This document shows positions 43,035 to 48,942 of a DNA stretch of 64,000 nt, one piece after another; the first letter of the stretch is position 1, and each line of letters starts with the position of its first letter. The notes under the pieces were generated by a model. The model had not been told where the DNA came from. It made no database searches and worked only from the letters and a program-made list of their open reading frames with translations. This stretch comes from Ignavibacteria bacterium (GTDB lineage: Bacteria > Bacteroidota > Ignavibacteria > Kapaibacteriales > UBA4661), in the NCBI GenBank assembly GCA_947459425.1, contig CANHDJ010000003.1, forward strand, positions 1 through 64,000, given 5' to 3'. Made by a program: the position numbers and the translations under genes.

Positions 43035-43340
43035 ATGCAAACCGCATATCCACACATTGTTCGCACCGAAGGCACTTGCGGCGGCAGACCGCGTATAGAC
43101 GGGTCGCGCATTGAGGTTCGTCATATTGCGGAACTGCTGCAACAAGGCGGTGAAATTGCGGATATGGCAGCCGCATACCCGCATATTCAACCTGTCAAAA
43201 TCTATGCTGCTTTGGCGTATTATTTTGACAATAAAGCAGAAATTGACGAATACATTGAAGCGGAAAATCGCGCTTGGGAGGAAGGATATGCAGCCGAACA
43301 GGAACGAAATAAGCAAGCCCAACTGGAAATGATTGCATGA
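43035..43340 (+). CDS. DUF433-family antitoxin-like protein
   Basis: 101 aa. It shows the DUF433 pattern: an N-terminal H/P-rich strand, then GGRPRIDGSRIEVRHIAELLQQGGEIADMAAAYPHIQPVKIYAALAYYFDNKAEID in overlapping blocks, a compact HTH resembling the VapB45 antitoxins. AAGGAAA lies about 8 nt before the ATG. The stop overlaps the next gene's start by 4 bp (ATGA), the usual arrangement for a coupled antitoxin-toxin pair. It lies 36 bp after tolC, inside the efflux operon. The acidic, charged C-terminus (ENRAWEEGYAAEQERNKQ) could be the toxin-contact tail. Function as antitoxin is inferred from family and partner. Confidence 0.88.
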   Translation: MQTAYPHIVRTEGTCGGRPRIDGSRIEVRHIAELLQQGGEIADMAAAYPHIQPVKIYAALAYYFDNKAEIDEYIEAENRAWEEGYAAEQERNKQAQLEMIA

Positions 43341-43675
43341 GGACAAAATTACTTATGGACGAACACGTCCAGTCTGCCGTCACCTCAGGTTTACGCTTAC
43401 TTGGGTTCGATGTTATAACGGCTCAGGAGATTGGGCTGACAAGTCAGGATGACGACATCGTTTTAGAATATGCCGCAAAGCATAACCGCGCAGTATTTAC
43501 AGTGAATAAGCGAGATTTTATCGTTTTACACAACGAATATATTCTGACAGGTCGCACACATGGGGGCATTCTCGTCATGAAAAGTTGCGACACACGAGAA
43601 ACTATCCGACGCATCCGCATTTTTGCAGCACAGCATCAGTTCGATGATCTATCAAATCAACTTTGTCACTTATAA
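43337..43675 (+). CDS. DUF5615 PIN-like toxin
   Basis: 112 aa of the DUF5615/PIN-like (VapC45/Mut7-C-related) family, predicted metal-dependent ribonucleases. Early acid in LLMDEHV, an acidic patch SQDDDIVLEYA, and the typical strand-turn AVFTVNKRDFIVLH with its Asp fit the PIN catalytic acids. It starts within the DUF433 stop codon (ATGA). It is followed 39 bp later by the periplasmic adaptor gene with its own Shine-Dalgarno sequence. The pair would be transcribed with the efflux genes unless it has an internal promoter. Confidence 0.88.
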   Translation: MRTKLLMDEHVQSAVTSGLRLLGFDVITAQEIGLTSQDDDIVLEYAAKHNRAVFTVNKRDFIVLHNEYILTGRTHGGILVMKSCDTRETIRRIRIFAAQHQFDDLSNQLCHL

Positions 43676-43714: not shown

Positions 43715-44773
43715 ATGAAAGGCAAAATTATTGGTACCGCCCTCACAGTCGTAGCACTGGGCTTGATTGTCATGACGCTGATGAACAATAAAGCGAAAAG
43801 CGACGCAAAAGCGCAACAAAGCGAACTTTCGACGACACTGCCCGTAACGGTGCAGGCAGTCGGCTATACACAATTACAAGAAGACCTGACGCTTGTCGGG
43901 ACGGTGCTTGCTAATAACGATGTAACGGTGATTTCCGAAACATCGGGGCGCATCAAATCGGTCAATGTCAAGATTGGCGACAACGTGAGCGCTGGAACCG
44001 TGCTGGTCGCGGTGGACGACGAACTCCGCCAAGCGGGTTTGCTTTCGGCACAAGCAAATTACGACAAATCCAAAGCCGAATTTGACCGTATCGAAGCACT
44101 GGTGAAAGAAAATGCTGTCACGGCAGCACAAATGGACGGTGTTCGTTTGGGCTTGAAATCTGCCGAGGCGCAGCTTATCACGGCTCGCCGCCAAGCAAAA
44201 GACACCCGCGTAACCTCGCCAATTTCGGGGCAAGTAACGGCGCGCCCGGTGGACTTGGGCGCACAGTTGAATGTTGGCTCACCAGTGGCAACGATTGTGG
44301 ATATTTCTAAATTAAAGGTCAAAGTGAATGTTGCTGAAGCAGAAGTTTTCAAAATGAAAAACGGCGACAAAGTGAACATCACGACCGAGGTATATCCAAA
44401 CACCATCTTTGAAGGGCGTGTCAGCTCTATTTCCGCGAAAGGCGACGAAGCGCACACCTATCCTGTCGAAATCGCATTGGCAAATAGTAAAACCACCCCG
44501 CTCCGCGCAGGAATGTTTGCCCGTGCGACGTTTGTTTCTGTCAAGCGTGATAAGTTTTTGGCAATTCCCCGCGAAGCACTCGTCGGCAGCGTGAAAGATG
44601 CTCATGTGTACGTCGTGGAAAACGGCTCTACGGCTCGTTTGCGCACGGTCAGCGTTGGTGCGGAGGCGGATGGCAAATTGGCGATTGTGCAGGGCTTGAA
44701 AGACGGCGAAAGTATTGTTGTTAATGGGCAGAATAACTTGAAAGATGGCGCAAGCGTGGCTGTTGTGAAGTAA
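43715..44773 (+). CDS. RND efflux periplasmic adaptor (HlyD/AcrA family)
   Basis: Links the inner-membrane pump to TolC. It is 352 aa with a single N-terminal hydrophobic segment (IIGTALTVVALGLIVMTLM) and no lipobox, so it is anchored by one TM. The lipoyl-like half VTVISETSGRIKSVNVKIGDNV is followed by an alpha-hairpin about 115-165 (LLSAQANYDKSKAEFDRIEALVKENAVTAA). The lipoyl return RVTSPISGQV appears here as VTSPISGQVTARPVDLGAQL. A beta-barrel and membrane-proximal domain follow to the end. AAGGA precedes the ATG. The stop overlaps the next small gene's ATG (TAATG). Confidence 0.94.
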   Translation: MKGKIIGTALTVVALGLIVMTLMNNKAKSDAKAQQSELSTTLPVTVQAVGYTQLQEDLTLVGTVLANNDVTVISETSGRIKSVNVKIGDNVSAGTVLVAVDDELRQAGLLSAQANYDKSKAEFDRIEALVKENAVTAAQMDGVRLGLKSAEAQLITARRQAKDTRVTSPISGQVTARPVDLGAQLNVGSPVATIVDISKLKVKVNVAEAEVFKMKNGDKVNITTEVYPNTIFEGRVSSISAKGDEAHTYPVEIALANSKTTPLRAGMFARATFVSVKRDKFLAIPREALVGSVKDAHVYVVENGSTARLRTVSVGAEADGKLAIVQGLKDGESIVVNGQNNLKDGASVAVVK

Positions 44774-45012
44774 TGAATTTTCAAGAACATGACACCGTTG
44801 TCTTGCTAAAAGACACCCTTACAACCCGATACGGAACATCGGAAGAAATTGTGCTACAACGTGGTTCGCTGGGTACAATCGTTGCGCCGATTTTTAACGG
44901 AAGCCATGCACTTGTTGAGTTTGCTGACCGTAGTGGAAAACCCTACGCGATGCCCGAACTGCCTTTAGCAGATATACTTCGCGTCATTGATGAATTAGAA
45001 TTTGCAGCATAG
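44773..45012 (+). CDS. DUF4926-domain small protein
   Basis: 79 aa. It matches the DUF4926 layout: an N-terminal (F..HDTVVLLKDTL) strand, RGSLGTIVAPIFNGSHALVEF as the core SH3-like beta-barrel, and a hydrophobic end PELPLADILRVIDE. Its ATG overlaps the adaptor's TAA by one base, so it is translationally coupled to the pump gene. It is followed 11 bp later by a HEPN gene. DUF4926 proteins are small, poorly characterised and often next to toxin-like genes. An antitoxin or sensor part is possible but not shown. Confidence 0.85.
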   Translation: MNFQEHDTVVLLKDTLTTRYGTSEEIVLQRGSLGTIVAPIFNGSHALVEFADRSGKPYAMPELPLADILRVIDELEFAA

Positions 45013-45023
45013 ATTGGAATGGA

Positions 45024-45395
45024 ATGATACCTGAACTCCTCGCAAAATCTCAAGAAAACCTCAAGTCCGCAGAACTTTCGTTTGAGGGCGAATGTTACAA
45101 TGCTTCAGCGAATCGTGCGTATTATGCCGCGATTCATGCAGCCGCCGCAGCGATATTTCATGCGGGATTGAATGTAGAGATTGACCATCGGAAAATAAAA
45201 TCGGTGTTCTCGGCGACACTGGTTAATGCTCGTAAATCGTATCCTTCTCGGATGAAAGACGATCTTAATCAATTCCAACAACTTCGCAATACCGCTGATT
45301 ACAAAATCATTCATGTCGGCAAAAAGAAAGCAGCAGAACAGCTCTCGCATGCAAAAAAATTTGTTTCCATTATCGCTGAAAGGATACAACCATGA
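45024..45395 (+). CDS. HEPN-domain protein (COG1895-type)
   Basis: 123 aa all-helical HEPN domain. The signature YNASANRAYYAAIHAA gives Arg31 and His38 (R-x6-H), the residues that form the composite RNase site in many HEPN toxins. The family's second landmark QLRNTADYKI appears near residue 93. Canonical partners are MNT nucleotidyltransferases, which are absent here. Instead it sits between a DUF4926 gene and an unrecognised 89-aa gene whose start overlaps its stop (ATGA). RNase activity is predicted from the motif only. Confidence 0.88.
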   Translation: MIPELLAKSQENLKSAELSFEGECYNASANRAYYAAIHAAAAAIFHAGLNVEIDHRKIKSVFSATLVNARKSYPSRMKDDLNQFQQLRNTADYKIIHVGKKKAAEQLSHAKKFVSIIAERIQP

Positions 45396-45661
45396 GCAGA
45401 AAAATAAGCACACGTCGCCAACAGCTTGCAAACGAGATATTCTCGGCACTTCAGGCGCAATACCCCGAAATTTCTTTGATTCAAATTCGGCGAAGCCCTG
45501 AGCATCCCGATGATACCTGGATTGACGTTCTTGCCCCTATGGACGAAGACCGCGAAATGGCTATGAATGCTTACGCTGCGCAACTTGAGAGCAACATTCT
45601 TGTCGAGTATAATTATCATTTTTCTACATTGTCGCAAAATCCCACACTTGTAGAAGTATAA
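45392..45661 (+). CDS. Unrecognised 89-aa protein coupled to HEPN gene
   Basis: 89 aa, overlapping the HEPN stop by 4 bp. It is mixed alpha/beta with a basic N-terminus (SRKISTRRQQLANEIFSAL), a strand-rich middle (SLIQIRRSPEHPDDTWIDVL) and an acidic helix (PMDEDREMAMNAYAAQL). It ends with SNILVEYNYHFSTLSQNP. I recognise no family. It has the size, charge balance and coupling expected of a HEPN antitoxin or regulator, but this is inferred only from position. The next gene is the RND pump 62 bp downstream with an AGAGGA site. Confidence 0.8.
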   Translation: MSRKISTRRQQLANEIFSALQAQYPEISLIQIRRSPEHPDDTWIDVLAPMDEDREMAMNAYAAQLESNILVEYNYHFSTLSQNPTLVEV

Positions 45662-45723: not shown

Positions 45724-48700
45724 ATGACAATGACAGAACTCGCTATTAAACGCCCCACGCTCGTCGTGGTGTTTTTTTCGATATTCGGCGTTTTGGGTAT
45801 TATGGGCTACATCCAGCTCAAATACGATCTTTTGCCGAAAATCAGCCCGCCCGTTGTCGTTATTACGACGATTTATCCGGGCGCAAGTCCGACGGAAGTC
45901 GAAACGAACGTCTCGAAAATTATTGAGGACGCGGTTTCTGGTATGGACAAAGTGTCCACAATCCGCTCCACATCAAGCGAAGGGCGTTCCTCCGTTATCA
46001 TCGAACTTGCGCAATCAGCAAACCTTGATTTTTCGCTGCAAGAAGCGCAACGCAAGGTGAGCCAAGTCTCGAACTTTTTGCCTAAAGATGCTCGCACACC
46101 GATCGTAGCGCGTGTTGCACTGGACGAGATTCCCGTGATTCGGATGGGCGTTACGTCCAATTTACCAAACCGTGAGTTTTACCAATTCATCAAAGACCAG
46201 CTTTTACCGCGTTTCTCGAAGCTCTCCGGTGTGGCACAAATCACGCCCGTTGGTGGCGAAGAGCGTCAAATAAAAATCAACCTGAATGCCGATAAAGTCA
46301 AGTCGTTTGGGCTTTCGATTCCTCAAGTTGCGGGTATTATCAAGGCTTCCAATCTCGACTTCCCAACAGGCAAAGTCAAAGGCTCGGAAACGCAATACGT
46401 GGTGCGCCTTGCAGGGAAATTTACCTCGCTGGAAGAAATTAAAAATATCGTTCTTTCCCGCACCCGCACGGGCGGTGAAATTCGCCTTGTGGACATTGCC
46501 GAAGTACAAGATGGCGCGAAAGAAGCCGTGAGTATTAGCCGTGTAAGCGGCACTACGTCTGTTGGTTTGCTGGTGAATAAACAATCCGATGCAAACTCGG
46601 TCGAAGTGAGCAAACTTGTACGCAAGGAAATCACAAGCATCGAAAAAGATTTTGCCGCAAAAAACCTCAAGTTTACCATTTCACAAGACGGTTCGCTCTT
46701 CACGATTGACGCGGCAGACGCAGTGAAACACGACTTGTTGATAGCTGTTGTGTTGGTGGCATTTGTAATGATGCTCTTCTTGCACTCGCTTCGTTCCTCG
46801 CTTATCGTGATGGTTGCCATACCCACCTCGCTTATTTCCACGGTTGCGGGAATGTGGGCATTTGGATTTTCGCTGAACTTGATGACGCTCTTAGCCATGT
46901 CGTTGGTGATTGGTATTCTCGTGGACGACTCGATTGTGGTTTTGGAGAATATCTATCGCCACCTCGAAATGGGCAAAGACAAGCGCAAAGCCTCACTCGA
47001 AGGGCGAAATGAAATCGGTTTTGCCGCGCTGTCGATTACGATGGTGGACGTGGTGGTGTTTGTGCCACTCGCGCTTTTGCCGGGTATTGTTGGCAATATT
47101 TTGCGCGAATTTGCTGTTGTTGTCGCTATTTCCACGCTCTTCAGCTTGATAGTATCCTTCACCGTTACGCCCGTTCTTGCGTCGCGCTTCGCTAAACACG
47201 AGCATTTAAGCGGTGATACGCTGATGGGACGTTTCGCGCTCTGGTTTGAAGGCATTTTTGACAGGTTTACGCTCTGGTACAAAGGCGTTTTGGTCTGGGC
47301 ATTGCATCACCGCAAAACGACGGTGTTGATTGTGGTGATGATGCTTGTAGCTTCGATTGCACTTATTCCACTGGGTTTTATCGGGTCGGAGTTTATTACG
47401 CAAGCCGATAGGGGCGAATTTTCTATTCAAATCGAACTTCCACCCGGAGCGACGTTTGAGCAGACAAACCAAAATACGCTCATGGTGGAAAAAATTGTTT
47501 CCAAAATTCCTGAAGTGCAGCGCACGTTTGTCAACGTTGGTGCTGCCGCATCAGGTTTCATTGGGGTTTTTGCCAACAACACGGCGGAAATTAACGTAAC
47601 GCTGTTTCCAATGGCGGAGCGCAAACGCTCGACTGACGATGTGATGTACGACATCAAAAAACTCACCGCCGGTATTCCGGGCGTGAAGGTGCGTGCCAGC
47701 CCAATCGGTATTTTTGGGAGCGCGAATGAGGCTCCGATTCAGATGGTGATAAACGGCACAAGCTACGAAGAGGTTGCCAAGGCAGCCAAGCTGATACGCG
47801 ATGTGGCAGCAGACGTTCCCGGAACAGCCGATGTACGCTTGTCTTCGGAAGACGGCAAGCCCGAAACCCGCATCGAAGTTGACCGCGCAAAGATGGCAAC
47901 CTTCGGACTCACGATTAACGATGTCGGTAGTGCGCTTCGTATTGCGCTTGCGGGCGATGACGACACAAAATTCCGCGATGGCAGCACGGAATATTCCATC
48001 TTGATTTCGCTTGACCAATTTGACCGCTCCAAGCCGGAAAGTCTGGGTTCGCTGACGTTTGTGAATCCACGTGGGCAAGTTGTGGAATTGCAACAATTCG
48101 CAACAATTTTCCAAGCCGTTGGTCCGACGCAACTTCAGCGCGAAAACCGCAATAGCGCGATTACGCTCTTCTCGCAAGTAGCAGGTCGCCCGTCGGGAAC
48201 AGTGGTGCAAGATATTGACAAAGCACTCATTGGCAAAATTCCTGCGGGCATCACGTATAGCTACGCCGGCAATCAAAAAAATATGCAGGATTCGTTCCAA
48301 AGTATGGGCATTGCGATTGCGATTGCGATTTTGTTCGTGTATTTCGTGATGGTGGCGTTGTATGATTCCTATATTTACCCATTTGTAGTGATGTTTTCGG
48401 TGCCAGTGGCGATTGTCGGCGCACTGCTCGCACTCGCGCTTGCAAACAAGGCATTGGGCATTTTCACGATGTTGGGTATGATTATGCTTATCGGCTTGGT
48501 AACGAAAAACGCTATTTTGATTGTTGACCGCACTAATCAAGTGAAGGAAGAACAGGGGCTTTCCGCCTACGACGCGCTTTTGGAGGCGGGGCAGTTGCGA
48601 TTGCGTCCGATTGTGATGACGACAGTGGCGATGATTGTGGGGATGCTCCCGATTGCGATAGGTGGAGGTGCGGGCGGTGAGTGGAAATCCGGTTTAGGCT

Positions 48701-48942
48701 GGGCGCTTATTGGCGGCTTGACAAGTTCGATGTTTCTGACGCTTGTTCTTGTTCCGGTTGTCTATATCAAATTCGACCACTGGCGCACGAGTGTTCCGGC
48801 ATTCTTGCGTCGCGTATTCCGTATCAAATCGGAGCAGGAAGAATATCCTACGGCAAAAGATTTGCAGCCCGAAGGGTACACTGGCGGCTTCGAGGGCGCA
48901 CCAGCGCTCCGCTCTGCGGTGCAGGACAAAGATGCACAGTAA
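45724..48942 (+). CDS. RND-family inner-membrane efflux pump
   Basis: Proton-driven multidrug-type transporter of the HAE1/AcrB-like family. It is 1072 aa with 12 TM helices in two halves. TM1 is near the start (TLVVVFFSIFGVLGIMGY). The porter domain PN1 has YPGASPTEVETNVSKIIEDA. TM4 has the proton-relay pair in VIGILVDDSIVVLENIYRHLE. The second half repeats the fold, with TM10 GMIMLIGLVTKNAILIVD, and ends with a 40-residue hydrophilic tail. AGAGGA precedes the ATG. It is the last gene of the interrupted operon. Substrates are unknown: efflux of small amphiphiles is typical. Confidence 0.95.
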   Translation: MTMTELAIKRPTLVVVFFSIFGVLGIMGYIQLKYDLLPKISPPVVVITTIYPGASPTEVETNVSKIIEDAVSGMDKVSTIRSTSSEGRSSVIIELAQSANLDFSLQEAQRKVSQVSNFLPKDARTPIVARVALDEIPVIRMGVTSNLPNREFYQFIKDQLLPRFSKLSGVAQITPVGGEERQIKINLNADKVKSFGLSIPQVAGIIKASNLDFPTGKVKGSETQYVVRLAGKFTSLEEIKNIVLSRTRTGGEIRLVDIAEVQDGAKEAVSISRVSGTTSVGLLVNKQSDANSVEVSKLVRKEITSIEKDFAAKNLKFTISQDGSLFTIDAADAVKHDLLIAVVLVAFVMMLFLHSLRSSLIVMVAIPTSLISTVAGMWAFGFSLNLMTLLAMSLVIGILVDDSIVVLENIYRHLEMGKDKRKASLEGRNEIGFAALSITMVDVVVFVPLALLPGIVGNILREFAVVVAISTLFSLIVSFTVTPVLASRFAKHEHLSGDTLMGRFALWFEGIFDRFTLWYKGVLVWALHHRKTTVLIVVMMLVASIALIPLGFIGSEFITQADRGEFSIQIELPPGATFEQTNQNTLMVEKIVSKIPEVQRTFVNVGAAASGFIGVFANNTAEINVTLFPMAERKRSTDDVMYDIKKLTAGIPGVKVRASPIGIFGSANEAPIQMVINGTSYEEVAKAAKLIRDVAADVPGTADVRLSSEDGKPETRIEVDRAKMATFGLTINDVGSALRIALAGDDDTKFRDGSTEYSILISLDQFDRSKPESLGSLTFVNPRGQVVELQQFATIFQAVGPTQLQRENRNSAITLFSQVAGRPSGTVVQDIDKALIGKIPAGITYSYAGNQKNMQDSFQSMGIAIAIAILFVYFVMVALYDSYIYPFVVMFSVPVAIVGALLALALANKALGIFTMLGMIMLIGLVTKNAILIVDRTNQVKEEQGLSAYDALLEAGQLRLRPIVMTTVAMIVGMLPIAIGGGAGGEWKSGLGWALIGGLTSSMFLTLVLVPVVYIKFDHWRTSVPAFLRRVFRIKSEQEEYPTAKDLQPEGYTGGFEGAPALRSAVQDKDAQ

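Follow-up and report, generated by a model that had tools for sequence, protein, structure and literature searches.

A HEPN protein and its acidic downstream partner: a putative toxin-antitoxin-like module at a variable junction of an RND efflux operon

Introduction

Do three small overlapping genes lying between the adaptor and the pump of an RND efflux operon in an Ignavibacteria bacterium form one unit, and does that unit have anything to do with efflux? A first-pass annotation of the window, by which we mean the whole 64,000-nucleotide stretch analyzed here, described them as a DUF4926-HEPN-unknown trio, possibly a toxin-antitoxin (TA) or stress module coupled in dosage to efflux expression. 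HEPN proteins rank with the most abundant predicted toxins, and in the pairs that have been studied well an MNT enzyme AMPylates them. If the reading proposed here is true, a small non-enzymatic acidic partner would be a second means of keeping HEPN toxins in check, and the alternative site suggested for the AF0298 subgroup could be tested directly. Overlapping genes inside an efflux operon, moreover, need no functional link to efflux.

Gene organization of the locus

The features of the locus, found in a source genome of 3.4 Mb in 93 contigs, are listed in Table 1. The three open reading frames and their tight couplings are real: the adaptor and DUF4926 overlap by one base in TAATG, 11 bp separate DUF4926 from HEPN, and HEPN and its 89-aa partner, here called X, overlap in an ATGA that recurs in L003, L004 and many relatives. 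What does not hold together is the trio itself, which is two unrelated units: DUF4926 alone, and HEPN plus X as one module.

Table 1. Features of the efflux operon around the HEPN-X pair (positions in the window).
Feature	Position	Strand	Evidence
RND periplasmic adaptor (HlyD_D23), host operon	43715..44773	+	Pfam PF16576, E=2e-25
DUF4926, orphan, outside the HEPN-X module	44773..45012	+	PF16277, E=3e-10
HEPN protein, putative RNA-targeting toxin	45024..45395	+	PF05168, E=2e-13
X, 89-aa acidic protein, putative antitoxin	45392..45661	+	Downstream of HEPN clade; without named family
ATGA stop/start overlap coupling HEPN and X, 4 bases	45392..45395	+	Sequence
RND efflux pump, host operon; start codon is the 3' edge of the variable junction	45724..48942	+	Orthologues in 9 relatives

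A second, VapBC-like pair occupies the same operon between TolC and the adaptor (43035-43675), where DUF433 (E=5e-18) and the PIN-like DUF5615 (E=5e-17) are joined by an ATGA overlap; no homologue of it occurs in the TolC-adaptor gap of the six relatives whose gap was read. The corresponding gap of G004 (L055 3401-4332) is filled by a 294-aa open frame whose family is uncertain, transposase- or nuclease-like by eye and without a good Pfam match, and for this reason the TolC-adaptor junction is also variable.

DUF4926 as a separate insert

Within the genus, the usual upstream neighbor of DUF4926 is DUF6883 (PF21814, E-values of 4e-17 to 4e-27 at the four DUF4926 loci scanned). This gene is absent upstream of the window copy, where the RND adaptor stands instead, and neither HEPN nor X was found beside DUF4926 at any of the eight other DUF4926 loci examined. 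In G007, DUF4926 occurs alone at the adaptor-pump junction with 77% amino acid identity to the window copy, and DNA homology between the two ends just after the gene (45011). Homology of the window with G004 and with G005, in turn, is lost at the start codon of HEPN (45024). Judged by these breakpoints, the junction in the window is a mosaic of two inserts.

The recurrent DUF6883-DUF4926 arrangement (L240, L242, L243, L247, L248) looks like another two-gene module; DUF6883 goes without mention in the literature searched, where a single paper mentions DUF4926.

The adaptor-pump junction as an insertion site

The junction holds different cargo in different relatives. G002 is close to the window, its pump sharing 94% nucleotide identity and, over the first 641 residues, 99% protein identity, and it carries a 23S_rRNA_IVP gene (PF05635, E=1e-26; L052 1923-2455) with no HEPN-X; homology with the window stops at the last adaptor codons and resumes exactly at the pump ATG (45724). 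The junctions of G003 and G009 are 69 and 31 bp long and free of cargo, while those of G001 and G006 contain repeat palindromes only. HEPN-X is present at the junction in G000, G004 and G005, without DUF4926 in G004 and, in G005, with no DUF4926 in the 100 bp before the contig ends. These comparisons mark the junction as an insertion hot spot with a different cargo in each relative. Since the cargo differs or is missing among relatives, position at this junction says little about efflux, and the proposal that dose is tied to efflux expression is not supported on the same grounds. A precedent is the MNT-HEPN module inside the lysine operon of Thermus thermophilus HB8, which is absent from HB27 (PMC2701414).

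Two kinds of repeats were seen at these sites. The 23S_rRNA_IVP gene of G002 is flanked by near-identical inverted repeats (TTGAGTGTTAAGT...), and REP-like palindromic repeats of the GGCACAGACATTCTTGTCTGTG type lie at the junction in three relatives (L056 4723-4990, L057 5778-5925 and L055 5387-5564). The REP-like palindromes may mark a preferred target.

Linkage of HEPN and X

X lies directly 3' of HEPN, on the same strand and at a distance of 0-70 bp, in all 45 HEPNs of the clade from 14 genomes (43 at E<=3.4e-33 plus two frameshifted copies at E<1e-19), whereas none of the 14 weaker HEPN matches tested (E>=2e-18) has an X. The reverse holds for MNT: among genomes in which MNTs were also searched, one lies within 450 bp upstream of 0/42 clade HEPNs versus 17/22 weaker matches. 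Four further HEPN paralogues in the source genome, 40-45% identical, are each followed by an X homologue, and HEPN stands upstream of X at 21 of the 22 named loci. This adjacency is far beyond chance. At L229 the two proteins are naturally fused in one 259-aa frame (HEPN at residues 28-148, X at 166-249). Moreover, their distance matrices are correlated (Mantel r=0.70, permutation maximum 0.20, n=46), and the partners are therefore not freely exchanged.

The pair is asymmetric in its orphan and broken copies. Seven intact X genes with both flanks present have no HEPN, and no orphan HEPN of the X-linked clade was found in the 14 genomes; at least four HEPNs broken by a stop or frameshift lie beside an open X, with L065 and L074 as further candidates. 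Such an asymmetry would be the trace expected of a toxin (HEPN) and an antitoxin (X), the broken copies being few, derived from MAGs and possibly sequencing errors.

Two loci show unusual arrangements. At L004 (1279-1470) a truncated X lies directly upstream of an intact HEPN-X, resembling the tandem modules of L008. An orphan X at L236 (118-839; G004:C39) is followed by a HicB-like ORF and preceded by an integrase-like ORF, both recognized by eye; the HicB-like identity is without Pfam confirmation.

Distribution and mobility

Genomes carry up to about 11 copies of X, whose nearest named relatives come from Candidatus Kapaibacterium and Ignavibacteria MAGs; two further families of its phylum also have X together with HEPN (L088, L089). 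The other HEPN-X copies of the source genome lie outside the efflux operon. A search with the HEPN alignment found HEPN-X with a 4-base overlap on two near-identical IMG/VR contigs (L249, L250), neighbored by AlkB, ParB-like genes and a head maturation protease. X itself is missing from the plasmid and phage records searched, and no X sequence pattern was confirmed in viral contigs. HEPN-X thus combines the strict two-gene linkage, mobility and patchy distribution by which TA modules are recognized, and the best reading of these data is a lineage-restricted, phage-carried TA-like module with a putative toxin.

The first-pass annotation had suggested an uncharacterized HEPN module, to be sought in other genomes as a DUF4926-HEPN-X order. 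The HEPN-X part stands, as a mobile pair recurring outside efflux operons; the order including DUF4926 does not recur at the other loci examined, and DUF4926 is not a member.

The HEPN protein

The AlphaFold2 model of HEPN (pLDDT 96) consists of five helices, and its best PDB match is AF0298 (2HSB; TM 0.86, rmsd 1.6). The protein is basic, with pI values of 8.8-9.8 (median 9.35). None of 35 HEPNs has the canonical RX4HXY RNase motif, and HEPN may therefore bind rather than cleave RNA. Anantharaman et al. (2013) described a subgroup that lacks the histidine of Rx4-6H (replaced by aspartate in several cases) and keeps the arginine; a second conserved histidine, nearer the N-terminus, could create another RNase site in place of the usual one (PMC3710099). 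HEPN shares with this PF05168/AF0298 subgroup the fold, the retained arginine, a non-conserved Rx4-6H histidine and a second conserved histidine.

An R31-x6-H38 motif had been noted in the window HEPN together with the lack of an adjacent MNT, and both are indeed present; its proposed role as the active motif is another matter. Position 38 is H in 32, Q in 11 and D in 3 of the 46 sequences, whereas R31, Y33, Y34, H55, K71, R88, D92 and Y93 are invariant in all 46 pairs. Because H38 varies while H55, R88, D92 and Y93 do not, R31-x6-H38 is not likely the active site. Conservation of these four residues agrees with the alternative site that has been suggested for AF0298.

The X protein

The partner had been called unrecognized, and so it is: X gave no significant match in Pfam, NCBIfam or PADLOC, and no usable family match when PHROGs is included, as searched. 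Its AlphaFold2 model (pLDDT 92) has the order alpha-beta-beta-alpha-beta, and the protein is acidic (median pI 4.4). The charge complement with the basic HEPN counts in favor of the putative pairing. The GSX10DXD nucleotidyltransferase motif is found in 0/46 X sequences; the 22/22 of the MNT comparison set is circular, that set having been chosen by the motif.

Foldseek matches of X in the PDB are weak and mixed, comprising the PaaK C-terminal domain, KH-II, RbfA, CDF C-terminal domains and MNTs. Two MNTs, from two HEPN/MNT complexes, rank 26 and 42 (prob 0.90 and 0.87), and none matches at E<=1e-3. The strand and helix order of X is the same as in an MNT core lacking the G-loop helix. X might accordingly be pictured as an MNT remnant that lost the G-loop and catalytic aspartates, a formerly AMPylation-reliant system now neutralizing by binding alone, an origin we consider improbable.

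Sequence homology of X to MNTs is not supported by profile comparison: the hhalign probability is 3.1%, no better than the 2.3% of the RbfA control, in a comparison from which the CDF control profile was left out, having drifted to non-domain stretches.

Proposed mechanism and alternative readings

We consider it fairly probable that HEPN and X form a two-gene TA-like module, with HEPN as putative toxin and X as putative antitoxin. The basic five-helix HEPN would probably bind or cleave RNA through an alternative site of H55, R88 and D92 (plus R31 and K71), predicted to be supplied by a dimer. X, presumably translated from the start codon overlapping the HEPN stop, would sit in the basic groove and keep HEPN inactive; since X lacks a nucleotidyltransferase motif, inhibition would be by direct binding rather than AMPylation. 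The pair would move between sites and settle in junctions like that between adaptor and pump. Counting against the TA-like reading, X has neither a DNA-binding domain nor a recognized antitoxin fold, and it lies downstream, whereas the antitoxin of known MNT-HEPN pairs lies upstream.

The main rival, which we rate as less probable yet substantial and which is compatible with a TA mode, is an anti-phage (abortive infection) unit in which a phage product, detected by X or displacing it, sets the HEPN RNase free. It draws on the phage-like contigs where the pair lies beside AlkB and head-protease genes, on the presence among the HEPN fold matches of AbiV, a HEPN protein whose motif is altered in the same way, and on the top PADLOC match of HEPN, which is the HEPN component of the candidate PDC-M05 (E=5e-6); no PDC-M05A, the other component, whose models match the MNT nucleotidyltransferase region, was however found next to the window HEPN. 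It seems unlikely that the pair is instead an MtlR-like complex, non-toxic and either RNA-binding or regulatory, in which X serves as an accessory KH-like RNA-binding subunit. KH-II and RbfA domains are among the top Foldseek matches of X, HEPN lacks the canonical RNase motif, and non-catalytic RNA-binding HEPNs have been proposed (PMC3710099), but X is strongly acidic, unlike RNA binders, the invariant H55, R88 and D92 suggest a catalytic site, and a patchy multicopy distribution with phage carriage is untypical of housekeeping regulators.

Least probable by far, and largely refuted, is a single DUF4926-HEPN-X stress module with its dose tied to efflux expression. The tight overlaps, the operon position and the retention of HEPN-X at the junction in three genomes speak for it; DUF4926 never accompanies HEPN-X at the other loci examined, other HEPN-X copies of the source genome lie elsewhere, and the junction holds a 23S-IVP gene in G002, DUF4926 only in G007 and nothing in G003 and G009. 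The best explanation is that HEPN-X entered the efflux operon by an insertion accident, next to an unrelated DUF4926.

Comparison with known systems

The closest known systems are the HEPN/MNT pairs (HepT/MntA, type VII TA), in particular Class II (PF05168/PF01909), which also lacks RX4HXY (PMC7641770). HEPN-X shares with them a PF05168 HEPN without that motif, a conserved tyrosine and a small two-gene mobile operon. It differs in having no MNT: the partner is downstream, lacks GSX10DXD and has no profile similarity to MNTs (hhalign probability 3%). Y93 of HEPN is invariant, yet X carries no nucleotidyltransferase motif, unlike HepT/MntA. With PDC-M05 the likeness is a weak match of HEPN to M05B, and the difference is that no M05A was found beside HEPN. 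The DUF6883-DUF4926 pair shares only its DUF4926 family member with the window, where DUF6883 is missing, and is a separate module. No counterpart of a HEPN pair like HEPN-X is described in the literature searched. HEPN belongs to a known subgroup, and its fixed partner is a family absent from the databases searched. The HEPN-T family typified by AF0298 (2HSB), compared as a protein alone, has the same fold and, as its predicted alternative active site, the R..DY residues with the N-terminal conserved histidine, whereas the window HEPN belongs to a dedicated clade with X as its fixed partner.
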